This document shows, piece by piece, positions 14,131 through 53,640 of a DNA stretch of 64,000 nt. The stretch comes from Antitrichia curtipendula. Taxonomy: Eukaryota; Streptophyta; Bryopsida; Hypnales; Leucodontaceae. The notes beneath the pieces were generated by a model, which made no database searches, had not been told where the DNA came from, and saw only the letters and a program-made list of their open reading frames with translations. Where the stretch lies: contig OX579633.1 in the NCBI GenBank assembly GCA_951230915.1, positions 3,224,001 through 3,288,000 of the forward strand. The letters are read 5' to 3'. How positions within the stretch are numbered: the first letter of the stretch is position 1; each line of letters starts with the position of its first letter. Made by a program: the position numbers and the translations under genes.

Positions 14131-16930
14131 TCCGTAGTTGCACCCTCCCCACTGCGTTCAGTAGCAAAACTTGTTTTTATTGAGAAAGTTTGACAAATGC
14201 TGAAAGTGCAGTGACAGATTTTGAGAAAGTTTGACTAATGTTATAGAGTGCATGGGTGAAATGAATAAAGAGAGGTGAAATACTGGCAAAACTTTCATTT
14301 ATTGACAAACATGAGCTCAAGATGTTGGACAAAAATAAGTTACATTTTTTAGTAAGCGTGTGCATAGAGATAAACCATTTGGTACATGTTAAGTCATATT
14401 TTGCATTGCATTTTGACCCGGTAAGGATGCTGTGGACCTAAAAGGTGCGATGGATGACTTCAGTATTAATCCCTGGTGACTTCAGTATTAATCCCTTGCC
14501 CAAGGTACCAAATTTTGATGTCGACAATACTTTGAAGTTAAATAAAATCTATTTAGGTTGTTATTTTTAGTAGTTTATATTTTTGAAAAATTATTTTCAA
14601 AATTTAGTTTTAGCATCACAAATCTGATTCTCAAAATGAATGATTATGATTTTTCTATTCAAGATATTGTGCAACGGTGTCTATTGCAATTTTGACTTTT
14701 TGTAGTGTTGAGGGCTCTTGGAAATGAGCCTTAAATATACTGGATCTTTGAGAAAAGTGCTCATTGTTTTTGGTGCACTTTTCTTACAATTGTATCGATT
14801 CATGCCTTAATTGAACAAAAGATTTTTAGTGTTGAATGCTTCCTTTACGTAAAGCTTTAGCAAAATTTTAGAGCATAATGGTAGTTTGGGCAAACATTGC
14901 AGTCATTTGAAGTGCAAGACCTTCCAAAATTTGGGCCCTTCTATACAATGTCAATTCTCTTTTGACCATTATAAGTTTTTAATCATTACAGTCAAATATT
15001 TCAATATTTTTCCTAGAGCTCTAGGATGAAAGATTCCATTGATTTCAATGGTAAAGTTTGGTGGATGTCATTTCACCACTAAGGAATCCAAATGGAAGGT
15101 GGTCTTGGCCGGTGGCAATTTTGCGATTTTGCATTGGATGCTTAGGGGTTAACATCCTCATGATCAAACATTATAATCTTTCAATCCATAAGTAATGTTG
15201 TTGTGTTTTCTTTTCCCATGTGATCTCTAACATGTCTAGTTTAAATTTGTATGGTTACAATTCAAAAAAATTGATACAATTTATCAAAATATTGTTCAAT
15301 TCAAAATAAATTTCAAGAAGCTCAAAAAACGCCTTGGACATTTAAGGGTTAACTCTAGAAATAAAAAATGTAGCTATTGGTTCAATAATAAGAGATTTTT
15401 GGTGATTACTTTTGTTATGAAGGGGGTGATTTCTTCTAGAATTGAATCAATTGAATTCATATTCTTTCAAAATGATAATAAAAATATAGTTGCATTTAAA
15501 AGATCCTTTGATGCTAACAATCTTGTAAAGAGGATTTTGGTCTCATGAAGTTGGTGACCTTTTAATATAACAAGTATATTTGTTGTCTTATAGATTGTAC
15601 TATATCAATTATGTGAACATGCATTTTCATTTTGAATTGTTTTGTATAAGTATTAAGATAGATGATTCCATTCTAGTCACTTTGTAGGCATTTTCAAACT
15701 ACAACACTGTAGTGGAAAGGGTGTCTTGGAATACTAAGCTATAGTATAAGAACTTGGTGCTTCAAGACCATATGAGAACCAATTTGGTGTTCACATGGGC
15801 TTGGAGCACCAAACATTGACACTATATAGTGACTTCCAAAAGTAATTGGCTACCATATAAATCACTCTCATAAACTAAGTAATTTGGAATTATGAAGTGA
15901 AATTTGGACATGTTGTACAAAAGTGATTCTACCCTCATGTGCAATTTCACTTAAAACGGACTATATTTAGACCTATTATTATTTGAATGAATTTTCTATG
16001 TAAAATTAATTTTTTTGTGAAAAGCCAAAATGTCTCAATTCTTTTTGCATGAAGAATGTACATCTTGACTAGAAACATATGTTACAAGTTTCATGAATTT
16101 TGGATTTTTATTGATTGAAATCTTATTGATTGAAATAATTAAAGTACCATTTTTTATTACTATAGAAAGTTTACTTCTGAATTTCACGTTCATTCAATTA
16201 TTTTTGCAATACTAGTGGCACAAAACAACTTCCGCAATGAACTTGTCAGGGAAAATAGGACAAGTGTTTCTTACAATGACCCTCCACATTGTTAGATGTG
16301 ACCAAAGGAAGTGGGAGTCCAAGACCAAATGGTAAAGACATTTTGCGTGGTTTAGGTGTAAATTCATAAAAGACTACAACCAAGAAGTTTATGTTTATTA
16401 TTTGATCCGACTTAGTGAAGCATAAGATCAATTAGATAGACAAAATCTATAATTGTGAGATTTTAGCCTGTCATGGTCTCCTAGAATTTTGTTAGGCTTA
16501 TCTCAAAGAGGTGGCCAAGAAAAAAGATCAATGAAACTTGCAAAAATATTACCTACTTTGGCTATGTAGAATTATGAGTGGGCTTCTTATCCTTGAGGAA
16601 CAACATGGACCTGATTTCTTTTTAGGTGGCACCGTGGAACCAAATTACACCATTTTAAAATAAAACCTTAATTTTTTGTCAAAATAAATTTAGTCTTTTT
16701 TCTGCCAAAATATATCCATATCTATTTTAAGCATGAATGAAATCACCAAACTTGGTTGAAAAACTGCATGAATAGAATTGAAAAGTGTTATTTGATCCAA
16801 AAGATGCTTGAATGCAAATATACTATACTTGTGGACAGTGTACCTTGACCAAAACGTAAGCCTAACTTAGACCATTACTTATCTCTCAACCAACTTTGAG
16901 AATTCAAGCATTAGAAAGAAAATCAAGCCT
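14131..16930. other. AT-rich intergenic DNA with repeat T
   Basis: Repeat T occupies about 14505-14750 and matches 26690-26945 in the same orientation, including a long shared block around 'gagggctcttggaaatgagcc'. A 22-bp direct duplication around 'gacttcagtattaatccct' lies at about 14458-14497. No gene is supported. Confidence 0.5.
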
Positions 16931-22890: not shown

Positions 22891-25305
22891 ATGGCAATCG
22901 GAGCAGACTCTTCTGAGGTCCTGGGCGCCCTCGACCAAGCCCGCAACCAATGGTACCACTTCACCACCATCATCATCTCCGGCATGGGCTTCTTCACCGA
23001 CGCCTACGACCTCTTCTGCATCTCCACCGTCGCACCCCTGCTCGGCCGCCTCTACTACCACGACCCCTTATCCCCCAAACGCAGCGTCCCCCCCTCAACG
23101 TCTCCGCCGCCGTCAACGGCGTCGCCCTCTGCGGGACTTTCTGCGGCCCGCTCTACTTCGACTGGCTCGGTGACCAAGTCGGCCGCGAAAAGGTTTACGG
23201 CTACAATCTCGTGTTCATGATCGTCACTTCTCTCGCTACAGGACTCTCCTTCGGAAGCTCAGCTAAAGGCGTCATGAGCATGCTCTGCTTCTTCCACTTC
23301 TGGCTGGGCTTCAGCATCGGAGGAGGCTGCCCTTTATCAGCAACCATAGTGTCTCAGTATGCGAAGCAGAAGACAAGAGAGGCGTTCATTGCAACGGTTA
23401 TTGCAATGCATGGATTGGGATTGTGGCTGGGGCAACTGTATCGATTATTGTGGCCTGGGTCTTTAGGAGGTAGTACCCGACGCTGACGTTTGAGGTGGAT
23501 CCACTAGGGTCACAACCAAAGGAAGCGGATTATGTGTGGAGGATCATTTTAATGTTTGAGGCGTTGTCGGCGCTGGTGACGTTTAACTACAAAATGCAGA
23601 TACGGGAGACGGCGACGTATACAGCGCTGGTGATAAGGAATAATCGGAGGGTGGCGATGGATATGGGGACGGTGCTGCAAGTGAAATTTCCGATGATTGT
23701 GGATGCGCCGGTGGATCATCATCGAGGTAAGTACGGGATGCAGCTTTGGTTTCCCAACTCTTAATTTGCTGCAGTTTATTTTTATTACTACGTTTGCCGA
23801 GCTTGGCGAGGTAGTCTCGCGACATATTCATACTGTTAATTCGGTTAAATTGTCGGCATTCCATGCAGTCCTTTGATACGTACACTAGCTGTGCCGATAG
23901 AGATGCAAACCAATATGCAAAATCTTCAGTTTTATAAATATGGTATCCGAGAGCTTGGTGTGAAAATCTCGATACATATTCATGATGCCAATGCAGGATA
24001 ACGTCAATTCGTTATATCGACATGTACACTAGCTTGATGTGCCGACAGGTATGCAAACTAATATGCAGATTACGTTTCATACATAACATTGTGCACCGCT
24101 TAGGGAGGAGTTCCGGATGGAATGTAGAATCGGGACCCCATGCAATCCACACAGACACTTGTAGATGTCTCCTGTTCAAGATGTCTCTTCTGTAGACATC
24201 ATGCAACAGAGGTTTACGATTCTGCAACTGTCCCACATTTCATTCATAATATTCTGCAGCGCTAAGCGAGGATTTCCGGATATAATGTAGAATCGGGACC
24301 CAAGTACGAGTCCCATCCAAGTGCAAAAAATTTGTCCTCGAAGTTGAAGTGCAGTTTTCGAATTTTTATTCTCTACGAATCTACAGCTAATAATGTCAGG
24401 GCAGGACCTCGGACACAATGCGATCTTCAAGATCCTGCAGTCTGATTTTACGGATCTTGGTTGAACATTGACAATGCCATTGAATTTTCGTTATTGTCTT
24501 TAACAATAACAATCACCTAAAGTCATCAAAATTTAATTCATTTGCAAGTTCTTATTACCTACCGACTTTGTTGTCCAGCTAGCTACGTACCTAACTTGCA
24601 AATAATTTTCGATCACCATATCCTTGATTGCCAACAGCCGACCATTACGTAACTGCCGCTCGTACGACCTCCACAGGGAGCCTTGTGGCGACCCAGAAAA
24701 GTACTGCGGAGAGAGTCACGTCGCCTTCCTCGTCCACTACGCATTCACGTTTTTCTTTGCTAACTTTAGTCCCGAACGCCACCATGTTTATTATTCCAGT
24801 GTCCGGAGCTTTTTCCTACGAGGCTGAGGTCAACTTATCATGGGATTAGTGCTCCGGCGCAGGGTTGTCTTGTCGGACACATTTTTGGGTTTCGGTGACG
24901 TGTTGGACGTCCGACGTCCGAAGTAGCGTGTTTTGAAAAAAGCGGAGGCGATTGCGGGGGCTTTTGGGTTTCTGTATGCAGCCCAAGGGAAACGAAGTAG
25001 CGTGTTTTGAAAAAAGCGGAGGCGATTGTGGGGGCTTTTGGGTTTTCTGTATGCAGCCCAAGGGAAACATCAACATGCAAAGGAGAAAGGCTATCCGAAT
25101 GGGATTGGGATTAAGAATGCGTTCTTGTTGTTGTCGCTGATTACTCTGGCGGGATTCTTTTGTCCTTTTTTTGTTGCCGCAGACCAAGGGGAGGTCGCTG
25201 GAAGAGTTGTCTGGGGAGAATGATGAAGATCAAAGGGAGAACAGTAGCCTGCATGTGCAACTGAAGCAACCATGGAGTATTGATCGCAATTCAGTAAGAC
25301 TTTAG
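22891..25305 (+). pseudogene. PHT1-type high-affinity phosphate transporter, broken
   Basis: PHT1 proteins are plasma-membrane proton/phosphate symporters of the major facilitator superfamily, normally about 520-540 residues with 12 membrane spans. From the ATG at 22891 the reading matches the PHT1 N-terminus, including '[20 protein letters not shown]'. The frame then shifts in a C run near 23087-23093, continuing as '[14 protein letters not shown]' and '[17 protein letters not shown]' (usual GGDYPLSATI is altered). A second shift near 23410-23440 and an in-frame TAG near 23475 precede 'PKEADYVWRIILMFEAL'. A GTAAGT donor follows near 23728. The central membrane spans are not found. The C-terminal part resumes near 24740 ('YAFTFFFANFSP', 'PNATMFIIPV') and ends with 'GYPNGIGIKNAFLLL' and 'TKGRSLEELSGEN', stopping at 25303-25305. 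With two frameshifts, a stop and missing exons this is a pseudogene. Confidence 0.85.
24917..25067 (+). repeat. 75-76-bp tandem duplication inside the PHT1 relic
   Basis: Two adjacent copies (24917-24991 and 24992-25067) differ at a few positions. Each begins with 'cgaagtagcgtgttttgaaa' and ends with 'tgcagcccaagggaaa'. The unit encodes the PHT1 segment like 'AIVGAFGFLYAAQ', so the duplication arose within the coding exon. Confidence 0.85.
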
Positions 25306-28767: not shown

Positions 28768-30568
28768 ATGAAGGCAGCCGTGTATGCCGAGCTCCGGCAG
28801 GCACTATTGCAAGAGGACAAGAAAATCTTGGAATCTGTGAAGGAGAAGTATCCATGGGTGGAGTTCGATACCGTGGTGGCCATAAAGTCACAGGAAAGCT
28901 CGCGTCAAATTCGGATGCAACATCACAAGTTCCGCACGAGGCAGCGTATTCAAGAATTCATCGCAAGGTGTGTATGTAATTTGCAATGACCGGACTCTCT
29001 TAAGTGACCTGGCATTTTACATATAAGAGTTTTTTTTGTTGCTTCTCCAGATTGATCTATGGTAGAGGATACTACAACTGTTACGGACCGGATGCCGTCT
29101 CCTATGCTGACCCCTGTTACCAATAGCAAGTCATCTATTCATACAGTCGGTTGGCCTTCGATGAGCAAGTTGGGTGTAAACATGGCTTTGCTAAATGTCT
29201 TGGCCACGCATCTTTGAATGGAAATGGGGTTATCTACCATCATTAATAGCGATCTACAACCTCCCGCTTTGAAATTGCATAAGAGATTCTTTCGTTGAGA
29301 TAAAATTTTATCTCGGAGAGTTTGGCTCTTGAACCCATAGATCTCTCTAGAGCTCTATACATCTCCCCCAAATCACAGCCTGTTTATGTAAAAATGCTTA
29401 AAAGGACACAAATAGTTCCTCTTAACTTAGGGTTCGCTAACTGGCTTCAATCTTGGGTTTAGGTATTCAGGTGGCGAAGATATATTGGAGATCAGCAGGG
29501 CATATGATATTCCTCCCTGCTTTCTGATGCGCATTTTGTTGGAGCACATGGCAGGCTTGCAAAAGCATCAGGTGAGCGCTTGCCTTAAGGATCCATCTTC
29601 GTTACCGGACTCTTCGACAATCGTCCAAGCGCAGAGGGTTGCAAACAGAGAAAGTGCTGCCACAGTTTCAAGGGGCAGGCTCTGTGCAGACGTGTTTCGT
29701 TGCATTGACAATGACACCGTGAGTTCTCCTGCGGTGGAGACGATACGAAGGGTTACTGGATTAGAGTAAGTTCGAGGCATGGGGTAGAGATCCTGTACTA
29801 TGTCATTGTCATCACTTGCGCATATTTAAAGCTCGAAGCTTAATGACGATGACCTTGCTGGCAGAAGTTTAACCACTTCTTGGCTTTTGGAGGCAGTTCG
29901 CTTCTTCATTTGGTCAAAGCGTACCCTTATATCCATGTTCACATTACCTTGCAGATATGAAATGCTGCTGTATGAGAAATTGCAAGAGCTAGGTATTTCC
30001 TACCAGTCAGAGGATGACTTGAGGGCAGCTGGCTTCAGCAAAACCCCTGATGTGAAGCTGGATGCTCCAATAGGCGTGCGTGGTCGCATGGTAAACTGGA
30101 TCGACAGCAAAGCCTCATTTGGAGATGAATATAGCCACAAATCTCAAGGCAGTGATCAATTTCAAAGGTATCTTTACCCTTCGCAAATCCTCCGAATTTC
30201 TGGTCGTTTACTGTATTGGATTTGTTTATGATTTGGTATGATGGCCTAATGCGTTTATGCTACCCTAAACCAACTTAAACAGTATATTTCTGTTGCCCAA
30301 AGGACTGAACGCAGAGTTTTGTCTAAAATCCCAAATCTGTGGTTTTCGTCATTTCTTCCTCGTGATTTTTGGCTGTGCGTGATTTGTCGCGCTAAAGTTC
30401 AAATCTGGGTGCAGTTATGTGAACAGGTTTGGTCCGGGAATGGTTATCTACTGGTTCGGATATATAGATGAACTTAACGACAATCCCGACATTCTTCTGA
30501 TGGATCACTTTCCGGACAAAAGTGAAGTTTATTGTCTTGCTGTATTACCAGTGCAAGCTAGGCCATAA
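28768..30568 (+). CDS. CDIN1: CDAN1-interacting nuclease 1 homologue (PD-(D/E)XK type)
   Basis: CDIN1 (C15orf41 in humans) is a predicted divalent-metal nuclease of the PD-(D/E)XK/Holliday-junction-resolvase-like fold that binds codanin-1 in animals; its plant role is not known to me. Four exons join in frame: 28768-28967, 29463-29765, 29955-30167 and 30415-30568, all with GT..AG introns, giving 289 residues against 281 for the human protein. The N-terminal half is helical, as in the family. The catalytic region reads 'GFSKTPDVKLDAPIG' then 'WIDSKASFGDEYSH', followed by 'NRFGPGMVIYWFGYI'. Where the human protein has ESK at the active-site strand this one has DSK, a conservative change that keeps an acidic residue and the lysine. 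The start is the first ATG in frame at 28768. No lesion is visible, so it is probably functional. The next gene downstream is a tRNA. Confidence 0.9.
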
Positions 30569-30996: not shown

Positions 30997-31067
30997 GCAC
31001 CGGTGGTCTAGTGGTAGAATAGTACCCTGCCACGGTACAGACCCGGGTTCGATTCCCGGCCGGTGCA
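30997..31067 (+). tRNA. tRNA-Gly (anticodon GCC)
   Basis: The 71-nt sequence folds as a cloverleaf. The acceptor stem GCACCGG pairs with CCGGTGC, with discriminator A. The anticodon loop is CTGCCAC, giving anticodon GCC. The D-arm/A-box region is TGGTCTAGTGG and the T-arm contains GGTTCGATTCC (B box). CCA is not encoded and there is no intron, as usual for this nuclear tRNA. A run of T directly downstream fits an RNA polymerase III terminator. Confidence 0.97.
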
Positions 31068-38835: not shown

Positions 38836-38867
38836 CATTAGAGCAAAAATGGGCCCTCTAAGTGCCC
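38836..38867 (+). repeat. Left terminal inverted repeat of the 14.8-kb element
   Basis: 32 bp, pairing with 53609-53640 with a single mismatch (T against C in 'ccctctaag' / 'ccctccaag'). Preceded by the pentamer ACTAT. Confidence 0.85.
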
Positions 38868-39570
38868 TTCACTTTGTGCAAGCCGGAATAAATCAAGGCT
38901 ATGTCCCATGGTACTAGAACTGTACCCAAAGGGTTGCTATCTTGTATAAAAATGTAGGCAAGGACTACCTCTGTTGCCTAGGGCATGGCAGAATGGTGGT
39001 ACAAATGGAAAGGCTTTTTAATTAGGCTCGCATGCTTGAGACATGCAGGTACTGCCTTGACTACAAATTTAATAGTCATTCTGGATGTACGCATGGTCTG
39101 ACTAATGCGGTTGAACCACTTCTGGGTCATCTTGCTGCAAGCACATTCAGTGACTTGTATAAGTCCTTCAATATAATACAGGATTCAACGGATATCAACA
39201 TTCTAGGAAAGCCATGCACAATATTACCAATACTAGTAAATTATTTGGAGGATAATTTGTGAATTCAAGAGCAAAAACAGAGTATAATGCAAAAATCACT
39301 GATATCACTTAACCCAATCACATTAAGTGCCGCATCGTCAATTAAACTTGTCAAACATTGTATTGTAGTTTGTCTCAAAAATTGACAGTGACTGTTTGAA
39401 GCTTGTGAGCTCAAATGGAGTGATACTAAAGTGTTTTTCTAAAATCATGTAGCCTGACTTAGCAAGGCTTAGCACATGATATAATCTACTAATATCGTTA
39501 TGAGAGGCAATAAAGTAGAAAATAGCCTCATGTAATTTCAATACCAATACTTGTCAACGACAATCTGAAA
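38868..39570. other. Left subterminal region of the element
   Basis: Non-coding between the left TIR and the stop codon of the first minus-strand gene. It probably includes that gene's 3' UTR and may hold transposase-binding sequences. The plus-strand frame at 39032-39262 has no recognisable features. Confidence 0.4.
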
Positions 39571-41220
39571 CTATACGAGAGTCAAATGGTCCAGCCTGCG
39601 AATCCTCAAGACTTTGGGGGGGAGGACATCGTGGACTGTTAAGTTCTTCTCTGCACGCCTGTTTACCTTCCTGTCAAGCGTTGTAGGATCACTAACGTAG
39701 AATGTGAATTCCGTTGGGGCCTCAGTTCCCATGGTGATCTGAACTTCATGCCTCAGGTGATTTAGAGGCCAATCAATCCCAACGTTGAACATGAGGGGGA
39801 TCTGTGGGTCCGCGTCGGCTACAACACACCGTAGGACTACCATCTGAACAGGCTCATCTTGGTCAAGTGGAACCCAGTCTCCAAGTAGCCGCTCTCTCGT
39901 GAAATTAAAGTTCACATAAAGCGTTTGCCGGGCAATGTGATACCTGCATCCAATGAATTGCCACCCAACTCATGAGAATTTGCACGTAGAAATCAGCATA
40001 GTACATTAAAACAGGCCAATGAAAAGAAACAATTGAGTTAGAAAGGCGTGTAAGTTTGCGTAGTACCTGAACACAATGCTGGGCAACGACACTGTGCAGC
40101 GGATAATGTCTGCTCCCACCGTCACTTTCTGGTTCCAACCAGCATCCATCAAGTCTGCGAAAACAGACTGGTCTAGATTCCGGAAAGAATACAACAAAGG
40201 AGTCCTACTCCGGTTTGGTGCGGTAGCGAACAAGTCCACAAAAACGCAAACTGGCATGAACCACTGCACATGCGATCGTCGCGACCCCGTGCTAGGCTTC
40301 ATGGCACCCAAGAAATCTGCACGCATTTTAGCACAAAAGCATTCGGAAGTGGACATGTCGGGAAGAGGCCAACCTGTAGAGCTGAAACCTGGCAAGGGAA
40401 TCTCCTCGAGGCTCCCGTAAAGTTCGGCACCTGCTGGAGGGACGTAGTGCCACTTGTAAAAAAATACGGAAGCCTTGAGCAGCTCCCGGTGTGATCAGTC
40501 GTGATGAATAGCTTCTCCAATGTCTACATGAAGCCCCACGACCACTCCCACAATAGCTCTAGGATTGATCCAGTCCTCGTAGAAACACGGGTACAAATCT
40601 GTAATTCCAAAGCGATAAACTGTAGTTAGCGTCATACTGTATGTCACCTAGTTGGTTCACTTGGAATCTATTCTATTTGAGTGTATGAATTCCAACTGTA
40701 CATCACACCCCAATTTCAAAACATGAAAGACTACAACAGTATCAAAATGCACGCATTAGTATCTTCACTTCTAGTCGGTGCAAAGCTTGCATTCAACAGT
40801 AATAGAGAAGTCTCAAATAAGACTTGAAAACTCTACTCCTCTCAACAATGAGATAAGAATTAGAAGCTAAAAATTTTGGCCAACTGAACAAGTCAAGAAA
40901 TACTTACAGTTGCAACGGAGTCTCGGCTGTGCAACATTGGGATCCAATCTCAAGTGCCGGGATTCATATGCATGGCGCACTCGCACTCTAGATACCACCT
41001 CTGTTGAGTTACCTGATACCTCAAACTCCTTTATTTGAGCCTTGTAAAGGGACATGGGATTGTCCTCTCCGTAACGCGCATAGTCCCGGCCCCATGCACT
41101 TGCGATGTCTGGCTGCAGAGTCACCCACGAGTTGATCTCGAATTAGGTTGGAATCCATCGCCCCTCTGTGTCTTGGGAGTTATGGAGGATGATTGATTCT
41201 ACCTTATTCTTGGGCGGCAT
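39571..41220 (-). pseudogene. Element gene A, unknown protein with two nonsense codons
   Basis: Three exons join in frame: 41220-40908, 40598-40067 and 39943-39571, with GTAAGT/AG and GTACTA/AG introns, for 405 codons plus stop. The protein starts MPPKNK, the same six residues as element gene B. A TAA interrupts codon 26 (consistent with CAA to TAA) and a TGA lies in exon 2 just after 'VDIGEAIHHD' (consistent with CGA to TGA). Away from these the frame is clean, so the gene decayed recently or the stops are tolerated. Features seen are a patch 'LYPCFYEDWINPRAIVGVVV', a Trp/Pro-rich middle and a C-terminal domain with 'TRERLLGDWVPLDQDEPVQM', probably beta-rich. I do not recognise the family. 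Position and shared start suggest an accessory protein of the transposon. Confidence 0.65.
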
Positions 41221-41638
41221 CTTAAAATGAACACATGCAACCAACAGGCAAGTAAGTGTCTAAATTACATGGCCCAGATGAGTTTGTGTAACGGCTTTAG
41301 TGAAAACAATTGGCAGCAAAAGGAGGTCTCAGTCTAACAGAAACCGAAAGTGGGGGAATCGGTTTCATACTTTGGGGAGTTGATGATCTGCCTTTGAATC
41401 GACCACAGTACTGCTCAGGCCAGAGCGTTGCTGGATCAAAGGGTTTAGACTCTAGTCAGACTTGAATGGGATAAACTTTGAAGCCAGCATCACATACGTT
41501 CTAAGGGCAATTACTGAACAAGGAAAAGAATGAAACTTTCACGACACTATATATACACAATCGAGTTGGCCAACAAAACATGGATGAAAGACAAACTGAT
41601 TCAAGGGCACAAGTGTCATGTCATGAATTCTTAGTACC

Positions 41639-44600
41639 TTAAGCTGCTATAAGCTCCAGCAGAATTGGGCCACATGGGTCAAAAGCTAGACTCACTGCTC
41701 CGAGTACCTGGGGGGGGCACAGAAAACAGCGAAACATATACATGAGATTCAACTATTATAACTGCACCTTATATGAAATTGGAGTGGTGTCTTCATTGTA
41801 ACTACTCAACATCATGTCTTTGGTACAATGGCCCCTATTGATTCACATAGTTTAACTGCAGAGAAATTGTAGAAGGCAGTACGTTTTACTAAGTGTCATC
41901 GTCAGCCACTCCCTCCCAATCGACATGTGCATGTCCCTTAGATACCACCTTTGAATTCTACATATAAGTAGGTAAAAATCTAGCCGTTCTCTTATGCATC
42001 ATATACTGTGTTGCTTTGAAGACTACTTAGTGCCTACTCCCGAGTGTGTGGCCGTTCTTTTACAATTCTAAAAAACAATCAGTGTTGAAAATGCCCAGGG
42101 TGGGAGAATATTAAGAATCCGTTGCCAAGTACAAGTGATTGTTGACACCAGGGGTTTAAATAGTCTATTTGTACCACTATAGGGAGTTGTTTTTCAATTT
42201 TTTTATTTCTAGTACATAAATTATAGTTAATTTAATGTATTACTCACTCCCACATGATTACAATAATCTTAGATAACTTGTCCTGAACAGACTCTTCCTA
42301 TTCATTGACAGTTTTTTATTACCATGGTAGCTAATTGTGTACTTTTTATTTTATTATGCTAGAAATTAAAGGTATCCAAGCCCAACATCAAACAATAAGA
42401 TCGTCCAATCCATTCAGTTGTTAAAAACAAGAGCTATTGAGTAGAGGGATATCATTTGTAGAACAAAGTCTCTTGCACAATCCACCTTTCAGATTTGTAG
42501 GGTGAAATTGATGAAAGCTAAATTGGGGACAAAAATATTAATAAAGTTATGAATGCGACTCAGAGAGTAAAATTTTGGTTAGAATCATGTGAAGAAAGAA
42601 CCACCAGATTCTTGTTGACTAAAATTCAATGTGGTTGTGACTCACCTCAGTTTTGCTCCACCTTCCTGTTGCCGTTCTAGAATCCACGCTGCCTGCCTCA
42701 GCAGATTGAGGGGTGCGATTGACTCGGGTATTCTCATTTTCAATCTCTGTACGTGATGTTGTAGTGACCCATTGGTCATCAACTCGGGCCATGTATGTGT
42801 ACATTGTAGTAGGCTACACTGAGGATTCTTTATCACAGACAAGTCGCAACAGTGAATGCATTGGCTTCTCATTCACTGATTTATAGAGATCAATCTTACT
42901 TAGCGTATTGAAAGTATAATTCTTTTTTCAAGTTGAACTTGACTTTCAAATCTAATTACGGTTTAATGGGTTGTACATCAGACATCCCTTGGTACAGAGT
43001 ACAAAATACATAGAACGACATTATATTATGCATGGTGAAATTTATTCACTGGTGAAGTACAGTGTCACAAACAAGTCAAAGGGGACATTCAATCTCAGCC
43101 TAAAGCGCAAAATTGTAGCCCCCGTGATCAACAAAAAACTTATCTGTCTCACCTGGGTACTATCATCCGACTATGTACAATCGGCTTCAGTCTTTCACTA
43201 TAGAGGAACAACTGGTAAAAAGGACCAAGCCGTATATTTTTTTGGTACCTCAGTTCCTATTATATTCTATCCTATACTATCCAACTACTGTACCTATACT
43301 TCCTTTGTAGAGTATATTTACACCAAATTGGCCACAAAGTAAACTATGCATCTAATAGTTTATGAAAGCAAACCGACTGAGTGAGGGATCAATCACATAC
43401 ATTTGAGATGATGATATCTATATTCTCAGTGATAACTGCCTCAGAAGAGGCCCCTGCAGCAAAGGTATTGGGTTCCATTACTGGCTGAAACAAAGACCTC
43501 TTATACATTGGAAGACTACAAAGAGTGGTGGGAAGAGGTGTGTAGCCCAACTCAGCAAGGCTAGTAGTGCTGGCAGTGTTACCAGTCCCCTCACTCTGGA
43601 CTCTATCATAGACTCGGAAACCCACGTCACTAGGAGATGCTGACCTGATGCACACGTTGATATTAGTACAAGGGGTCTGAGGTTTTCTGTTTTCCACCCA
43701 TGCTGACGAAGCCTGCTGTGAAGCACGGTCCAGATCAGTTGGCGTTGTTGGAAGATGCATGGTTCTTTGCCGCTTTGTGATCGTTGTGTGCTGTTCCGTA
43801 TTGCTTGAATCGGGACGCATGCAAGTCTCTCCAGGATCTGCCACTCTGCCTGTCACATGAGCAAGTTCTACAAAGTTACATTTGGTCCAAATATAAACCC
43901 AGTCTTCATCTGCTGAAAACAAACTTAGACATTTCTACTGCAAATTCCAATTCAACAATCGGGAGCCGACTAACTCCAAGTACAGCTCATTGAATAGGAC
44001 TCGGATCTTACCTGTCATGAAACCGTTCTCAACGGAGACTGCTACGCTGGAGACTTCAGCCTTCATCTTCTCTGTCAGGTCATAGCCCCATTGCGCAAGC
44101 ATTCCACCGTCGAACTCAGAAGAACATCGTGGACAATTTAGGACCTCTTCATGCAACAAACTAGCAAAGCAAGTTGGATGAAACACGCATCCACAACTAG
44201 CAGAGATAGAAGACCGAGATATGAAGCCAAGATTGCATTTACAACACAGTTGCAAATGTAGAGGCAACATACTGGGAATCGACTGTTCTGCAGGCCACTT
44301 TGGAACGACCTCCTTTGGCTGCAGATGGAGATTTGCAAGGCGAGCCAGGCGCAGTTTATCCTTGGCCGCAGAAAGATTGTCCACTGCCTCCTTCAAGGTC
44401 TGCTCTACTCCAGGCAATTCTTCATCTTCTGCTTTCTTCAACGCCAATTGAGCAGTTTGTTGTTTGTCGTTGTGGTCCTTCATTTGGCAGAGGAGAATGT
44501 GAGCCTCCTCTTTCTTGTCATCTGCCTCTGAGGTCAGGCCTTGCTGCTTCAGGAGTTTGAAGTCGGCCATTGCTGCCCCCCACTGTTCACCCAACGGCTC

Positions 44601-45467
44601 TTCTTCTGAGCACAGGACAGCGTATGCATTCTTCAATTGCTGAATGCGGCAAACAATCTTTGTGTACGCCTCCTCAATCAATAAATGCTTATCAGCACAG
44701 GTCTGTGCTTCCTGCATCGCTTCCAATTCGGCGCTGGTACTACTAGCAGAATTCCAATTGTCCCCAGAAGCTCGAGCGTACCTTTCAATTAGATGACAGA
44801 GGCCTCTGACTTGCTCACGAATTGCCATTGGTCCCAACTTCCTTGGATTATGAGCAGACCTCTCCAGTCGTGCCTGCCGTCGCTTTGCTGCCTCTGCTGC
44901 CCAATTCACATTCTCCTTGTGCACAAACCAAACAAGTAGAAACTTCATGGAAAATGCCTCGTTGTCTGGGCGTCCCCCGTAGACCCGTGAAAAGTGTCCT
45001 GCAAACAAAGCTACCTGCTCTCGATCCCTGCAATGTGCAAGTGGGAAGCGGTGCTTATCGCGGTTGCTTGGCTTCCACTTCCGAACGACCTCCTCTTCAG
45101 TGACTGAAGTCTCCGCCAAAGCCTTATCAACCTCGCATCCCAAATTGCACAAACCAACCACCTTGGCAAAAAATTCTGTGGAGTAGATTGCATCTCGCCC
45201 CCGCAACATTGGCGCCACTTCATACAACTTGTTGCGCAATGTGCTTGGAACTCCAGGCAAAGGAATAGGTTTCCAGAAGTCGGCCTCGCCCTCTTGAGGC
45301 TCTTCCGGCAAAAGAAGCAAGTTGCCCTTGTCCTGTGGCTCCCAACCCTCCGTGATATTGCTGGCACCACCTTCCCCCAAGCCAACACCTCCGCCATCGT
45401 CCACCAGGAACGTCCCAATCTGAGTTCTCTCTAGTAAAGCGTGCAGCGCCTTGTTCTTTGGCGGCAT
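41639..45467 (-). CDS. Element gene B, RING-finger and coiled-coil protein
   Basis: Four exons are proposed: 45467-44012, 43912-43401, 42813-42646 and 41707-41639, phases agreeing, for about 734 residues. The first two exons are well supported. The last two rest on splice consensus and open frame only; without them the protein would end at 43389. The ATG at 45467 begins MPPKNK, as in gene A. Residues about 300-390 are Lys/Glu/Leu-rich and likely coiled coil. A zinc-binding module at about 408-448 reads C-x2-C, x13, C-G-C-V-F-H-P-T-C, x11, C-P-R-C. This is a RING-like pattern in which the first His position is Cys, so it could act as an E3 ubiquitin ligase or only as a structural fold. The tail is Ser/Thr-rich. 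No lesion is seen. RAG1 carries its RING in the same polypeptide as the transposase; here it would be a separate protein. That comparison is inference. Confidence 0.65.
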
Positions 45468-47032
45468 CTTCACAGATTGTTGCGGTTCCAGTCGTTAGTA
45501 TATTCAATCCTACTTGCTGAACAGCTCACACTCTCACGGCAAGGGCACAAGTGTCAAATGCTCATGTCAATTGGCAGTTGCAAGCGTGGGCCCTCTCAAT
45601 TCCTTAGTTAGCGGCAGAAAATCAAACAAAGCCAGGCGGTTTTAGCACCTCCGTCCAATTACTTTGCAATTTGCATATTTTCTGAATTGGCTGTAAAGTC
45701 AAAGCTTGCACTCTTACAGTCAGGCAAGCATGGGAACTAACAAGCCATAGCTGACCTGCACTCTCGAATCTACCAAAAGGCGCCCTAAACTCTCAGATTC
45801 CCAAACTGCCAAGCAAATGAACTGTAAATTTAACACAGATTCACCCCTACCAGACATAAGATACTCTAAATTTAACAAAGTGCCAGGCGGAACAAATTGA
45901 CTGGAAGATGAATAAAGTTTCACTGCAATGGATTCGCAACCTCTGACTTGCTCTGACTTCCGTCACTCTTGTGTGCAGTGCACGACTGAGTAAAACATTA
46001 ACGGGCATGAACAGTATGAAATAGTCTTTGACGCCGGTGCTTGTCTCTGGTGAGGCTTGGTCGTTAGGGCTGGGAAGGGCATGTGACGCATGGCAGCCTC
46101 AGAGTGAAAGCCCAAGCCTCTAAACCAGGCTTGGTACTAGGCATGGAAGATGACTTGGTACTAAGCGAGAAATTGTGCATAGAGGTATTTTAGAAAGTAG
46201 GCTCGGAAGTAGGCATGGAACTAGACATGGAACCAGGCTTGGACTCTTTGATACGATGGAGTTAGATTTTGAAATCTTGGATGTGATAGATTGAGGTTGT
46301 AGGCTCTTAAATTGTATATATAATTAGACTTGACGATTTTGAAACTCTAAGATGTGATTGACTGAAGCTTCAATTCTTAAATTGTAAATGTAATTTGACT
46401 TGCCGATTTTGAAATCTTAAATGTACCCTAAACTAGGTTGCACTTGCACTTTTAAATTATGGTCATTTAATTTATAGTTCACAAAGTTTCATTTATTGGT
46501 TTTGGCAAGAACAACAACATTGAGGCTAGTCAAAAGGCCTATTTGTTGTGGTATTTTTGCCATACGGGTGCCTTGGATTAGTTTGTGAATAATAAAAAGC
46601 CGTATTGTTCTAATGCACTTCACTGAACCCCTAACTATATTCTAAGCCATTGTTGTGCTTAATTTTTTGTCAAACTCCAAAATAAACAAGTGATTGGATC
46701 CCATTTTAATGTAATTCAAATTTTCATTAGATGTTTAAATAAGTTGCTTTATTATACATCTCCTAACCATTGGAATTGGAGAATGGAATTCATTTGAAGT
46801 GGATTACTACTGTTTAGAAATTAGAAATTTGACTATCCAAAATACAAATGGCTTAGTAAAAATCATTGATATCACTATAGGTCTTTTATATTATTGGCAC
46901 TTTGGATTTTTGGGAACTTGCAAACATAAATTTTATTGACTTTAAATTTTATCTTTGATAATAAAGTTGACAAAACAATATATATTTATTGTTAATTTTT
47001 ATCTTTTTGCCATGATACAATCTATAATTTTA

Positions 47033-47129
47033 GGCCCCAAATGCTACACCTGGGGGTCCCAAGTGTCTCAACTGGGGCCCCAAGTGCTACACCTGGGGGT
47101 CCCAAATGTCTCATCTGGGGCCCCAAGTG
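47033..47129. repeat. 43-bp tandem repeat, about 2.3 copies
   Basis: Units start at 47033, 47076 and 47119 with 'ggccccaa(a/g)tg'. Each contains 'ctacacctgggggtccca' and 'tgtctca', and each unit is itself partly palindromic. It lies inside the AT-rich insert of the central spacer. Confidence 0.85.
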
Positions 47130-47159
47130 TTTTATTGTGCAAACTGGAGGCGCTCAACG

Positions 47160-47908
47160 GTTAAAGACATAATATTTAAGGATTCAAAATTCTAAAATAA
47201 TTATTTCAAAATAGTAAAATAGAACCTTTAAGAATATTCCCAAAATATTTCTATTGTTGCTTTTCATTTGCTTTCAAAGTTCAAACCACGTTGATAAATT
47301 ACTCCAGCCCACCTGCCAATTACATGCTCTCTTTTTGAAAGCCAACCAAGCTCACTCATGTAGTTTGTATTGCTCCCCGAACAACTCAAAAAATGACTTT
47401 TAAAAACAATATACTAAATTTGGAGTCAATGCTCAATATTTTTGGAACAAAATCTAATCATTAGATGAAGGTTGTTTATTATAACAATATAACTATTGGA
47501 ATTGGAACTTTTCAATTCTATAAGTTAATTCTTAACAATTTAGTATTTTAAACCATACTCTACTTCTATTGTTTTACTACTTTTTTTTTATATATATAAC
47601 ATAAACCCTATTTCTTCAGCATATTATGGTGAAAGTGACAAACTGGCATCAACGTATTATGGAGGATCCATACATTTCTATGTAAAAGATATTTATTTCT
47701 GAAACTTCCAAGCATCATGGTCTTGCAATTGACAATGTTTTTTAATTTTGAACTTACAAGACTTTATGCTCTAACAAATTACTGACTGAAGGCTCATTCG
47801 TTTGGATTTGTAAATGAATAAATAGAAGTGAAGATTTTAGCCTTGCTTTGGGTTTGAGGGTTTGAAGCAACTATAGACCTAAGAACATTGAATTGTTTTA
47901 GGGGTTAA
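47160..47908 (+). mobile_element. piggyBac-like copy nested in the 14.8-kb element
   Basis: The internal block around 47495-47570 matches the family's 'ttcaatt..ctattaacaatttag' region. The right end 'aggggttaac' with TTAA at 47905-47908 matches the family terminus. The left end is unclear. Nesting implies the host element is the older insertion. Confidence 0.4.
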
Positions 47909-48199
47909 CTAACACTTCTTTGATTAAGCTATGAAAATAGTTATACAATAAAATATTATTAATAGTATTCTAATTTCAATAGAGATAGTTGTACAAAAAA
48001 ATGACCAACAAAATTGTAGTTTCTATATAACCACCTAGGCAGGTAGGCTTGAGTGGAAAATGAAGCCCATAAATCACTAATATGTTAATTCCTACAAAGT
48101 GTTATAATGATTATGACTTATCAAATTTCCTCAAAACTTGCAGCACAATGGAATCCAATAAGTCTTTCCTACACCTCAGTAGTTATATCTCAGTTTCAG

Positions 48200-48241
48200 G
48201 TTAGGGTTTAGGGTTTGCCAAGGGTTAGGGTTTAGGGTTTG
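48200..48241 (+). repeat. Short interstitial telomere-type repeat / telo-box
   Basis: Two clusters of (TTTAGGG)-type units are separated by 'tttgccaag'. TTTAGGG is the common plant telomere repeat, and its complement AAACCCTA is the telo-box promoter element of plant genes expressed in dividing cells. Either origin is possible. Confidence 0.7.
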
Positions 48242-48504
48242 GCTCATTGTTCATATCACTCACTGCCAATAACATATTGCACAGTAAGCCAGCCAAGCAG
48301 TCACTGAAATGATGGAATTTTGAGGTTCACCGTGAGGGCCCAGACCCTCCAGTACAATTGGAGCATTGACCTGTCTCTGTGTCTAACGGGCATTTTTAGG
48401 TACCAAAGTACTTCCGAATGTTACTGTCAAGGTTAAGTACCTCTGAGATATCCATTTCTTTTTGGACTCTAAACCAATTAAATTGTTTCCCACCTCCATG
48501 TCAC

Positions 48505-48750
48505 TTTTCCCGCTACTTTGAAGAGGCAGTTAGTCTCTCCCATGATGTTTTCAACAGTAAAACATTGTAAATCACATTGAGCCAACTTACCCTAGCCATT
48601 CGGTACAAGTACTACTAATAATAATATATGGAAAAAAATACATTAAATTTATTGAAGCAGCCAATGAAAATGTTTCCCTCTGCCGTATATTACTTTTTCC
48701 CGCTTAATTAGTTTGTCCTTGGCAGTTGGCACACTACCATTCCCGCCAAA
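48505..48750. promoter_or_regulatory. Three E2F-type sites upstream of the transposase
   Basis: TTTTCCCGC occurs at 48505-48513, TTTTTCCCGC at 48694-48703 and TTCCCGCCAAA at 48740-48750. The last is the exact inverse of the consensus TTTGGCGGGAA. CCAAT motifs lie nearby (for example near 48660 and 48903). E2F sites drive S-phase genes in plants, so the promoter may tie transposase expression to DNA replication. That link is inference from motifs alone. Confidence 0.45.
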
Positions 48751-49380
48751 ATTTGCTTCATCAGGCTCCAGTGCAGCATGAGATGGCTAATTCTATAATG
48801 GAATGTAGTAGGCGAGGGGGATCTTGTCAAGATGCTATGCATTGACCTCAGTTTTGTAAGGGCAGCCAATGACTAATAACTTGTATTAAAATACTAAAGC
48901 AACCAATGGAATTGTTTCCCACTTACCTCCACATCAGAGTTTCCGTGTCCTGTCAAGCTCTTTTCTGCCTTGTTTGACCCTCACAGTGGTTTCGCTCCAC
49001 GAAGCCGATTTCTGATTGCAACAGCAGATGGACACGAATGTTGAACCGGGTATTGGGCACGAATGCCAGATGGTGTACACTAATCTTAGTAGTGGTTGAA
49101 TTAGGTTACACTGACACTGATTCCACACCCTAACTGCTCAATCGGCATGAAGAGAATAATTAGTTAGTAAACTCCAGTATGTGCATGGCCGGGTGCATGG
49201 CTAGTCAGTTCCATCTCCTTTGCTAAGCTAACTTCCGCCAGGTCTTTCAGATTGAGCTCACTGTTGCATCTTGGAGTGGCAAGTATGTTGCTTAGCATAG
49301 TAATAGAATGTATTAGTGTGTGATCTTGCAGTTCTAATTGACTGCTTAAACTGTAGCCGCTTGTTGGCAATTTAGCCGTC

Positions 49381-52300
49381 ATGGCCCTGCATGATAGAAC
49401 AAATATATATAGAACAGCCGGGAGCTATACACCAAGTTGTATCCTTCCGCCAAAATACAGGCCAGTAATATGTAGAGGCCAAAAATCCATTGATCAGCCT
49501 GCCAGGGTAGACTTTGCAGCCATGCGCTTAGCAGGGAATTGCAATATAGACTTGTGGTTAGACGGCTTGATTTATCCAGAACATCCGGTAACCCGAAAAC
49601 CTCCACAATTCCATGACTTGAAATCATTCCTGTGCTTTCTTGGTGACGGGCTTACCGACTTCTATGGCTATGTCCAATCTCTACACAATGGGACTGATGT
49701 TCGCCTGAGAGAATACATGCTACGATGTTCTGAATTAACACAACAATTACAAGAATTGGTCATGGAGCGGAATTTGAGTATTTTACAGCTGCAAGCCGAC
49801 AAGAGTGCCCTACAGAATGTTGTTGCGTCTTCTGAATTGCAAGTGTCGTTGTTGCTAACTAATATGCATGAGGTGGAGACTGGCCGTGAGGAGCAAGTAA
49901 GGCAATTACAAGCTGAAATTGCTGCACACGTTGAGAATAAAAGAAGGCACATGGAAGAAACCACTACGGAGGTCAATACCTTGATAGATACCAACACGGA
50001 GCAAATCAACCGCATAAAGGTTTGTCATGAAGACCAACTTCGAGATCTCAATGTTGAACTTCTGGAAACCAATAATAACTTGAACCAACTGCGTCTTCGG
50101 TTTCAAATTCTGTCGAATTCTCCCATCCAACTAGCAAGCGGCCGAAAGAGGAAGGACTTGAGTGATCTGTCGTCAAAAGGGAGACACGTCGAGTGAAGCA
50201 AGCAGTCAGGTAAATCTTCTTGTAAATTACTTGCACAATATTATGATAGGCTTCGATCATTCTTCACATGTGATTGAGGTCGCATTGTCTCCCATATGAA
50301 TGTGCTCATTGTGTGTTTACATCTTGTGGTTGATCAACTGATTGTTGTGGCAGATACCTCCTTCAACCTGCCACAGTGAGATCTATCCAGAACACTAATG
50401 CGAGCACAGGAGCACGGAAGCGCATTTGCGGTCCCATTGGCAGCCAACAATCTACAGCCGCGGTATTTGCTAACATCCTGACGAAAGGAGAGGCTGCAGC
50501 TATGATGGCGGCCCCTAAATTGCATGCAACAAGTACCCAGATTGTAGGCAATGTCCTTAAGTCAATTCGCTGTGAGGTTGGTCCTCACGAAATCCTCGCA
50601 GTTTGTGATCGTTCTGGCGTTTCTCACAAAGGCTACACCTCAATCTACAAGACATCTAGGGCTGGCATTCGGCATGTAGATTCCAAATTGACTCAGCATA
50701 TACTACCAAATCCACATCAGGTACGCACGCCTCCTTCATGTATCATGCTTGTTTTTGTGATATTTTATGCTGATAATAACGCTTTGGCGGCATGCCATTG
50801 TAAGTGTCTAAAGTAATCAGTATTGGCAAACTTGCCAGGGTTGAACCTATTATTTGGATTGATTTAGGAGTGTGTTTTGGGTCATAGGTGGGACTTCTGA
50901 GAACTGAACTGAATTCAAACTTGAGGAAGTATGTGGGAGACTATTACCACATCAACAACTCTATGGAGCTTCCACATGATTCCAACAGGAAACAAGACTC
51001 TAAACAGAAACCTGGTCCCACTCATTTGCATCTCAATGAATCAAACACCTTCTTTGTAGACCTGGAGACCGTGATGAAATCAATGGTGCACTTCTACAAA
51101 TTTACACCTGAAGGTTTGCTCACTTCTTGATCATTGAGTGTTATTAATTTATCTTTCATTTTGTGACTCTCTGTAATGTTAGCCTGTAGCCTGAGTGCGG
51201 GAGCATTCCAAATTGCCCGATGTATTCAAGTTAATTTGCAGTGGACTTATTGCCGCACTACCTCTCAGAATCTTTTAAAACTGTACCATGTGCATATATG
51301 GCCTAATTGATTTGTTTTTTCTTTGATGTGCTCCAAACAGAACTGAATGGTGCCCCGCTGATTTTCGTCCTCAAAATGGACGAGGCAGAGATCATCAAAC
51401 AACAGAAGCTTGAGCGGCTTGGCATTTCAATCATGAATCGAGCTGTCAACCCTGATATCACTCACGACGATCCAAATTTTTTCAGTGTACAGTCAGATAC
51501 CAACATTTGGCCAATTGCAACATTTCGTGTGATCAAAGAGTCTCATGCATGCTTGAAATGGGTACTAAATCAAACTAGTATTCCTACTGTGATTAAGGGT
51601 CACTCAAGTGGCCAAAAACTTGTTGTTGAACACATTGGAGAATTTGCAGTGGAGTGGCATTTGGCTTGTGACATGAAGACTATTAGTGCTTATATGGAAT
51701 GAGTCATGGGCCCACGGCAAAGCATCCTTGCATTTATTGTTGGCAAGAACGGGTCCAAACTCAAGTCCTGACAACCACCAACCACTCAAGCAACATCCAT
51801 CGAAAAGGCCAAAAGAACATGGGACGGAGGGTTGTTCTCCACGTTGATTGGGAATGCGCCTATGAGAGGATCAGATGGCCCAGGACTTTGGGACCCCATA
51901 CTAGACATCCCCTTGAGCCGGGTGCACATCTGCATGTTGCACGCACAATGTCGAATAATGGAGAAGATTATCCACTTACACCTCTGCTATGTTTGGAACT
52001 TGAAAGATGCCAACCTGAGAAGAGAAGTTGTAAGTGCCATGGAACATGCTTTGTCCAAGGCGGGGGTGGCTGGAGGATCAGTTGTCCTCACCAAAGATCC
52101 TAGACTTTCTGGCAAGAACTCGGACTTGCCGAACAAGCTGTCATTTAATGGCGCTGCTTGTCGAAGGATGTTTAAACCTAGCTCGTGGTCCAACTTGGAC
52201 CAAACATGGAAAGACGTTTGTGAAGCGGAGCGAAATACCTCAAATCAAGGTCGAGCGAAGAGAGAACGCTAGAATATGTGGGCTGCATTTGCCGACCTGC

Positions 52301-53052
52301 AAGTCTATTTCAGTAGTATGCAATTATCTGTTAGGCAGAAAACTGAATACAAGGGAAAAGTGGAGAAGTGGGGCAGATTATTTCTCAAGGCATTCGGCGA
52401 ATCTCATGTCACACACTACGTGGTTAGTTATTTCTTCCCTTTCCTTTCTGCTTATTGCTTATTTCAAGTTACATGTACCTAAGACTAAAATTACCCAGTG
52501 TTAGTTCAGTGCACCAGCTACGGATTCGCACTAGTCGTTGATACATTGTAATTTATGCAATTCAATTTATCCTATAGCCTTCACTGCTTTCTTTAATACA
52601 TTCCCCTCATATTGTTGCAGCACTGCTTGGTGAAACACTCTACATGGTTTGTAGATACTTATGATAGCCTGGCTGCTTGGTCTACGCAAGGGATGGAAAA
52701 ATCCCATTACACCGCCAAAAGTGCCTTCCACAAACACACGCAGCACTCCGGAACATCTGCTCATAGAAGCCCAATCATCCAGACATACGAATGGTGGTTT
52801 CGTACAATTCAACACAGGGAGTATGAACTAACAGGGAGGATGCTCCAGCCTGCTAGTGATCCTACAATTGATCTGGCTTTAAAGGAGAGAAGACGCCAAA
52901 GTTCTATTTCTTCCTCAGCTCTCACCAAACATGCAGAATGGAGGCAGAGGAGGATTCGGATTGGCAGTGTATGGGCCCCAAATCCCCGAGTAGAACAGCC
53001 TGCAGAAGCCCAAAGCGATGAGGAACCGGATGAGCTTCCTGTCCTAGTATAA
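49381..53052 (+). pseudogene. RAG1/Transib-like DDE transposase, decayed copy
   Basis: Five exons: 49381-50209, 50354-50720, 50888-51113, 51341-52422, 52621-53052 (about 980 codons). Residues about 110-240 are coiled coil, followed by a basic 'GRKRKD' signal. Catalytic candidates are D at 51379-51381 ('LKMDEAE'), D at 51670-51672 ('LACDMKT'), CIYC at 51729-51740 and E at 52696-52698 ('WSTQGMEKSH'). D to D is 97 residues (108 in RAG1), D to CxxC about 20 (19), D to E about 276 (254). The block H-x4-H-x13-W-x3-G-x-E has exactly the spacing of RAG1 H937, H942, W956, G960 and E962. A helical insert with 'VHICMLHAQCRIMEKIIHLH' separates D2 and E, as in RAG1 and hAT. Lesions: a frame change between about 50163 and 50196; a one-base loss near 51697; a compensating shift at about 51770-51830; and TAG at 52270-52272. 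RAG1 numbering is from memory. Confidence 0.75.
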
Positions 53053-53608
53053 GTCCAACAAATATTTGAATGTTTCAATCTTATTCTGATAGGAACTCAT
53101 CAAGAGTAACTATGTTCAATTTCCAATTTTGCACTGCTCCACAGATCTCTTAGCACTGTCCTTTGTACTAGTCATCCAATCCCAATCTAGTTACGCAAAG
53201 TATTGCCTTCATTTTCATTAATAAAAGCCAGTGTTCAATCCCGCTACTTTGTGTGACCAACAATTTCTCTTCAAACCACAGTCTGTGCTGCAATGACCGC
53301 CACAGCAAGTGGCGCAAATACTAGTACCACATCATGTGGTGAATTTTATATCCTGTTGTAAGCTAAAGGACGTGGTGAAGGCAGCACCCGCAAGTACCTG
53401 CTTTTCAATTAAATAATACCTTGGTGTACCAGATTGCAGGGTTGACAGTGAATGGCCTGCAAGTTTCTGCCAATAGGAACAGTAGTTCATACAAGGAGCC
53501 ATCATGTTCTAGTGAGCCCCCTTGAGCGGGAATAGGGGATTTCTTCCGTCCTTGAGGTGTTACTATTAAAACGTATTACTTCTATTTCACTAAAGGGGTC
53601 TCTCTAAG
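53053..53608. other. Right subterminal region of the element
   Basis: Non-coding between the transposase stop and the right TIR. It contains two AATAAA-like polyadenylation candidates (near 53218 and 53412). Nothing else is recognised. Confidence 0.4.
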
Positions 53609-53640
53609 GGGCACTTGGAGGGCCCATTTTTGCTCTAATG
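53609..53640 (-). repeat. Right terminal inverted repeat of the 14.8-kb element
   Basis: 32 bp ending in ..TTTTTGCTCTAATG, the inverse of the left end with one mismatch. Followed by the pentamer ATTAT. Confidence 0.85.

Follow-up and report, generated by a model that had tools for sequence, protein, structure and literature searches.

In a 64,000-nucleotide stretch of the Antitrichia curtipendula genome (contig OX579633.1, positions 3,224,001 to 3,288,000; hereafter the window), we analysed a 14.8-kb element that is bounded by terminal inverted repeats (TIRs) and carries three genes. Our sequence, fold and genome comparisons show three copies with the same termini, each predicted to encode a DDE transposase with a RAG1 fold, a protein with a RING ligand pattern and a protein with a ubiquitin-like fold. 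We consider it probable that the element represents a TIR DNA transposon, now decayed in this copy, with a three-gene set conserved in its lineage; such a transposon would move by D-D-E cut-and-paste while the RING and ubiquitin-fold proteins act as a pair in trans. The initial annotation had read the genes for a RAG1-like transposase and two further proteins as parts of a single TIR transposon, and this gains support from two further full-length copies, shared selection and genome-wide linkage.

The terminal sequences of the element (CATTAGAG) agree at 31 of 32 positions between 38836-38867 and 53609-53640, as annotated initially, and over 34 nt at 97% when two flanking bases are included. 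The 23-bp TIR core has no further site in the window at up to three mismatches (0 in 100 shuffles) and occurs at 66 places in the genome at the same threshold, the reversed control giving 0; the own-genome searches covered 400,189,583 bases in 303 contigs. Two more full-length TIR pairs are found in this genome, namely C6 (14,831 bp) and C8 (16,215 bp). All three genes are present in both, in the same order as in the window copy: gene 3 (-) lies towards the left end and the transposase gene (+) towards the right end, with the RING gene (-) between them. C6 is identical to the window copy at 14,485 of 14,732 aligned positions (98.3%) over the whole element, and C8 matches it in pieces at 68-82% identity. 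Because C6 aligns from the first to the last base, and its flanks have nothing in common with those of the window copy, the boundaries are fixed independently of any duplication. The three spliced genes also stand as models: four transposase introns and three gene-3 introns are GT-AG, the RING intron was placed by eye, and P0029 joins exons 2 and 3 of gene 3 at the predicted splice.

The window copy is disabled. Its transposase gene contains two frame changes (near 51,700 and 51,770) and an in-frame stop (near 52,271) in exon 4, where C6 and C8 have no stop, and gene 3 also contains an in-frame stop; judging from these lesions, the copy cannot be active as it stands. The stop in gene-3 exon 3 falls at amino acid 34 in the window copy and at amino acid 154 in C6, and therefore the copies decayed independently. 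A further stop interrupts the RING exon of C6, and likewise that of C8; C6 also has one in transposase exon 2 and one in the last transposase exon, and C8 one in gene-3 exon 4. No stop falls in the long transposase exon of C6 or C8, and in many relatives this exon is open as well. Gene-less copies with the same TIRs, which the initial annotation regarded as counting against a three-gene unit, do exist, but look like ordinary non-autonomous derivatives: locus L013 (C1:51947393-51947800; 408 bp) bears both window-family termini and is probably such a derivative of the window family. Two other short TIR families, L014 and L021, end in CATTAGAGCAAAAATCAGCCCTCCGGAGGG, and a different lineage of this group may have mobilised them.

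Between the window copy and C8, the ratio of nonsynonymous to synonymous substitution rates (dN/dS) is 0.128 for the transposase (882 codons), 0.098 for gene 3 (366 codons) and 0.370 for the RING gene (630 codons). Between the window copy and C6 the values are 0.65, 0.49 and 0.75, respectively, and such higher ratios between two close copies would be expected after loss of selection. Our genome searches returned at least 115 transposase, 106 RING and 132 gene-3 match rows, with several rows possible per element; the counts that follow are among the matches listed. Of the 106 RING rows, 89 (54 of 64 loci; random mean 0.85 per 100) are no more than 15 kb from a transposase row, as are 88 of the 132 gene-3 rows (random mean 1.1 per 132), the chance controls assuming 34 Mb for contig C5, which is a guess. 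Only six of the 64 RING loci are more than 30 kb from every transposase match. The proteins are thus not mainly unlinked host genes, another observation initially named as adverse, with 10 RING loci and 44 gene-3 rows as the exceptions. Counted from the 115 transposase rows, gene 3 is present within 15 kb in 87, the RING gene in 55, both in 43, at least one in 99 and neither in 16.

Sixteen transposase rows are of equal score and identity, with a 395-amino-acid frame without stops, and both partners lie within 8 kb in all 16; three of these rows are on other, possibly small, contigs and may repeat chromosomal copies. Four copies of this family, compared over stretches, are 99.8-100% identical. 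Two copies, at C7:3429991 and C7:3439036, share one direction and are separated by 9,045 bp, and the family is found at 14 other places. From its sequences, it has apparently amplified very recently. In another assembly, a transposase homologue (P0013) and a gene-3 homologue (P0027) are each found on a 298,184-bp contig, almost surely the same one.

The transposase core adopts the RAG1 fold in a structure model from which the last exon was left out. That exon shows RAG1-type spacings (H-H 5, H-E 20) and scores 60 against RAG1 (0 of 2000 shuffles each way); for the RAG1 residues named, PDB chain 9jpu served as the check on positions 702-980. P0001 tracks the long transposase exon and continues about ten residues beyond the predicted donor. 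The kinship to RAG1 noted initially is upheld by fold and not by sequence profile. Matches to NUS1 and Calpain-5 in PDB are chance hits, as are RasGAP_C, ABC_toxin_N and Ac75, which fall below the Pfam cut-offs. Scans for relatives of the transposase, not of the RING gene or gene 3, gave 42 candidates in viral_contigs (two patterns) and 59 in GTDB genomes, 0 being confirmed in either, and a viral or bacterial origin was rejected; an exact 22-mer of the TIR is absent from viral_contigs.

A single homologue of the RING protein (P0017; 65% over 96%) was found among 7,994 candidates. It has the ligand order C-x2-C...C-x-C-x2-H-x2-C...C-x2-C in common with the window RING, and its end lies only a few residues from the donor of RING exon 1. 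The RING protein has no Pfam match and only weakly resembles four RING proteins in PDB (E 0.9-3.2); a BAIAP2 match is a chance hit. Its ligand pattern suggests an E3 ligase. The C-terminal part of gene 3, annotated initially as an unknown protein, can now be assigned a ubiquitin-like beta-grasp fold from a structure model and Foldseek. The hexapeptide MPPKNK stands at the start of the RING gene (45450-45467) and at the possible start of gene 3 (41203-41220), with 20 of 22 nt alike, and these common starts perhaps reflect a duplicated 5' end.

The passages available of PMC12730594 characterise the CMCT clade by C(2)C and H(3-4)H motifs, mostly CA..TG ends and 2-5 bp duplications, and include in it Lanisha, a DNA transposon lineage like EnSpm that Maumus, McDaniel and Carey put forward in 2020 (Repbase Reports). 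The window, C6, C8 and C3 copies have CATTAG...CTAATG ends, which are of the CA..TG type, and by architecture we file the element as a CMCT-clade transposon and not as Transib, RAGL or CACTA. The authors of Lanisha are reportedly the team of the moss Ceratodon genome. The element may equally well fall inside or outside this proposed superfamily; if inside, its gene set and folds would be new and its lineage not. In the description given by PMC12730594, Lanisha shares the CMCT motifs with the element, which has CA..TG ends in plant-type DNA. A plant host is a further common trait; the comparison is at the level of descriptions only.

RAG1, ProtoRAG (RAGL) and Transib share with the element the transposase fold and the order D, D, CxxC, H-x4-H, E, but no sequence-profile similarity. 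The RING of RAG1 is in the same chain as the transposase, whereas here it is encoded by a separate gene. Transib and RAGL have a CAC heptamer like that of a recombination signal sequence and a 5-bp duplication, whereas the element has CATTAG termini and no consistent 5-bp duplication; for RAGL, the passages available of PMC7204232 report 5-bp duplications and supply the consensus used here for the heptamer comparison. The RAGL passages make no mention of a ubiquitin-fold gene such as that of the element. A RAG2-like kelch/PHD partner was absent among the exons and homologues scanned by Pfam, and gene 3 ends in its beta-grasp domain. Chapaev, also of the CMCT clade, has two subgroups that encode a RING finger, placed after the Chapa domain in one protein according to the passages available of PMC4411706, whereas the RING gene here is separate; neither Chapa nor another Pfam domain exceeded the cut-off in the transposase exons scanned. 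EnSpm/CACTA, ESTA and Plavaka have C(2)C and H(3-4)H motifs and CA..TG ends like the element, and extra genes in some cases, but the element has neither CACTA nor CAC..GTG ends, lacks a 3-bp duplication, gives no Pfam match in the transposase exons scanned and has other accessory genes. CACTA proper and Transib proper were thus rejected on termini and duplication. RING fingers also occur in proteins of Gypsy-family and Pao retrotransposons, as noted in the passages available of PMC3630058. We found no description of the three-gene set in the open-licence literature, a scope outside which subscription journals and Repbase Reports fall.

The initial annotation took the flanking pentamers ACTAT/ATTAT as a 5-bp target duplication. 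They are present and alike at four of five positions, but those of C6 (CCTTG/GGATT) agree at one of five. Over the seven elements with both ends (window copy, C6, C8, C3:20126292-20139256, L013, L014 and L021, of which the last two come from different short families that end similarly and carry less weight), the scores are 4, 1, 0, 1, 0, 1 and 1 of 5, and a 5-bp duplication was rejected. No perfect repeat of 3-10 bp lies beside any of the seven (C3 examined by eye). Mutation is unlikely to have erased a duplication in C6 because the window copy and C6 have diverged by only about 0.8% each; a rearrangement of one of its ends is a possible cause. A 2-bp target duplication blurred by mutation is a tentative alternative. 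Two-bp flanks show a weak excess of matches, with 8 of 14 positions alike in the seven elements taken together (binomial test with 0.264 per base, P 0.0145, uncorrected for lengths tried), are perfect in the window copy (AT) and L014 (CA), and would fit the 2-5 bp of the CMCT clade in the passages of PMC12730594, but they are perfect in only these two of seven elements, and the close copy C6 has TG/GG.

In the mechanism that we favour, a transposase dimer would bind the CATTAG termini, and its D-D-E site would very probably cut both ends and paste the element elsewhere, presumably leaving no consistent target duplication, unlike RAG and Transib. Less certainly, the RING protein may act as an E3 ligase and the ubiquitin-fold protein as its partner or substrate adaptor; the pair could plausibly work in trans, with the transposase or host proteins of silencing or repair as targets. 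The RING of RAG1, which is part of the same polypeptide, has been suggested to control RAG1. RAG1 may do within one polypeptide what separate proteins would do here, with the two accessory proteins working with the transposase.

Other roles for the accessory genes have to be weighed. Were they captured host passengers outside the transposition system, as capture of host genes by transposons is often seen, one could point to the 60 of 115 listed transposase rows without a RING match within 15 kb and to the faster evolution of RING (dN/dS 0.37). However, both genes recur beside transposases of 40-50% identity and are under purifying selection, and the pairing in all 16 recent rows and the few distant RING loci also speak against capture, which we regard as very unlikely and largely refuted. 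Alternatively, the accessory proteins may form an anti-silencing system that removes host repressors instead of regulating the transposase; VANC of the Arabidopsis VANDAL elements is an analogue. A RING protein with a ubiquitin-fold protein hints at targeted ubiquitylation, and the differences between the window copy and C6 (220 transitions, 27 transversions) are as expected of DNA once methylated and silenced. We hold this to be possible, yet less likely than not to be their role. It is likewise doubtful, though worth stating, that the element represents a separate superfamily of RAG1-fold plant transposons with no target-site duplication and its own trans ubiquitin module, one family of which has recently amplified and is caught in action.

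Several observations weigh against a three-gene transposon with a trans-acting pair. In the gene models, each of the three window-family copies contains at least one stop or frame change. Among the matches listed, only the 43 transposase rows above have both partners nearby, and for 44 of the 132 gene-3 rows the 15 kb on either side hold no transposase match; a large share of these gaps may reflect decay, or divergence too great to detect, and there may be lineages that lack RING. Three gene-3 homologues are on contigs longer than 100 kb: one is paired with a transposase homologue, and those on the 212,732- and 102,782-bp contigs are unpaired. Cut-and-paste insertion is deduced from the fold and the copies only, no duplication having been found, and the putative RING function is read from the ligand pattern. 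The profile comparison with RAG1 by hhalign gave a probability of 0.15, which lay within the range of 20 shuffles, and as a non-significant result it was rejected as proof of kinship; a sequence search of PDB with the transposase found nothing. Mean predicted local distance difference test (pLDDT) scores are 61 for the transposase model, which lacks the last exon, and 55 for gene 3. No Foldseek match of gene 3 reaches E 0.001, the list includes staphylococcal superantigen-like beta-grasp proteins (E from 0.005), and the ubiquitin fold is common to many non-ubiquitin domains. The gene-3 rows of the recent family each contain one TAA, perhaps from reading beyond the exon.

Relatives with other termini were seen among 20 TIR loci that we fetched: nine with the end CATTAGAGCAAAACTGGGGTCTC, the similar L025 and ten others. 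Gene 3 is present in all ten loci of the CATTAGAGCAAAACTGGGGTCTC-ended set including L025, and RING-like frames in seven. Six of these ten loci (L025, L029-L037; contigs C1, C2, C3, C4, C6, C8 and C10) have two divergent RING-like genes in opposite orientation; the transposase lies at the far end where reached, the gene order differs and a fourth gene is present. The remaining ten loci gave no RING or gene-3 match and one short transposase match (L028), and their second ends were not found.

Features of the element in the window
Feature	Position	Strand	Remarks
Element	38836..53640		14.8 kb; TIR-ended, three genes
Left TIR	38836..38867	+	starts 5'-CATTAG; similarity to C6 begins at 38836
Gene 3 exon 4	39571..39943	-	putative ubiquitin-like (beta-grasp) domain
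Gene 3 exon 3	40067..40598	-	in-frame stop in window copy; 15 homologues; C8 without stop there
Gene 3 exon 2	40908..41112	-	C6 96%, C8 87%; splice to exon 3 backed by P0029
Gene 3 possible exon 1	41203..41220	-	MPPKNK; ATG and GT donor only; tentative
RING gene exon 2	43389..43912	-	upper boundary approximate; open frame; C6 94%, C8 52-56%
RING gene exon 1	44012..45467	-	MPPKNK start; open frame; C6 96%, C8 74%, one stop in each
C4HC3-type RING domain	44124..44248	-	inside exon 1, coordinates by eye; eight ligands in window and P0017
Transposase exon 1	49381..50192	+	N-terminal part, assumed start codon; open frame, GT donor; 96% (amino acids) in C6, 82% in C8
Transposase exon 2	50354..50720	+	GT-AG model; one stop in C6
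Transposase exon 3	50888..51113	+	GT-AG model; compared in C6/C8
Transposase exon 4	51341..52422	+	first D (KMDEAE), second D (ACDMKTI), CxxC (HPCIYC); homologues P0001-P0016
Transposase last exon	52621..53052	+	H-x4-H, presumed catalytic E (VHCLVKH...GMEKSH); one stop in C6
Right TIR	53609..53640	-	ends CTAATG-3'; similarity to C6 stops at 53640

The element also contains short interstitial repeats of the plant telomere type (TTTAGGG; 48200-48245), between the RING gene and the transposase gene, and two tandem 43-bp repeats (GGCCCCAA...; 47033-47118). Outside it, the window holds a sugar-transporter-family frame (22917-23486), a TPD-domain (PF14811) frame (29830-30231) and a tRNA-Gly(gcc) (30997-31067).

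RAG1/Transib elements gave rise to antibody-gene recombination in animals, and plants hold distant EnSpm/CACTA cousins; to our knowledge, RAG1/Transib elements proper are known mainly from animals. If our interpretation is correct, a RAG1-fold lineage in a plant genome would allow the role of a RING protein beside a RAG1-type transposase to be probed, with the RING as a removable separate gene, in a system that offers the 115 transposase match rows listed and a near-identical set of copies. If there is indeed no target duplication, the geometry of strand transfer must differ from that of RAG and Transib.

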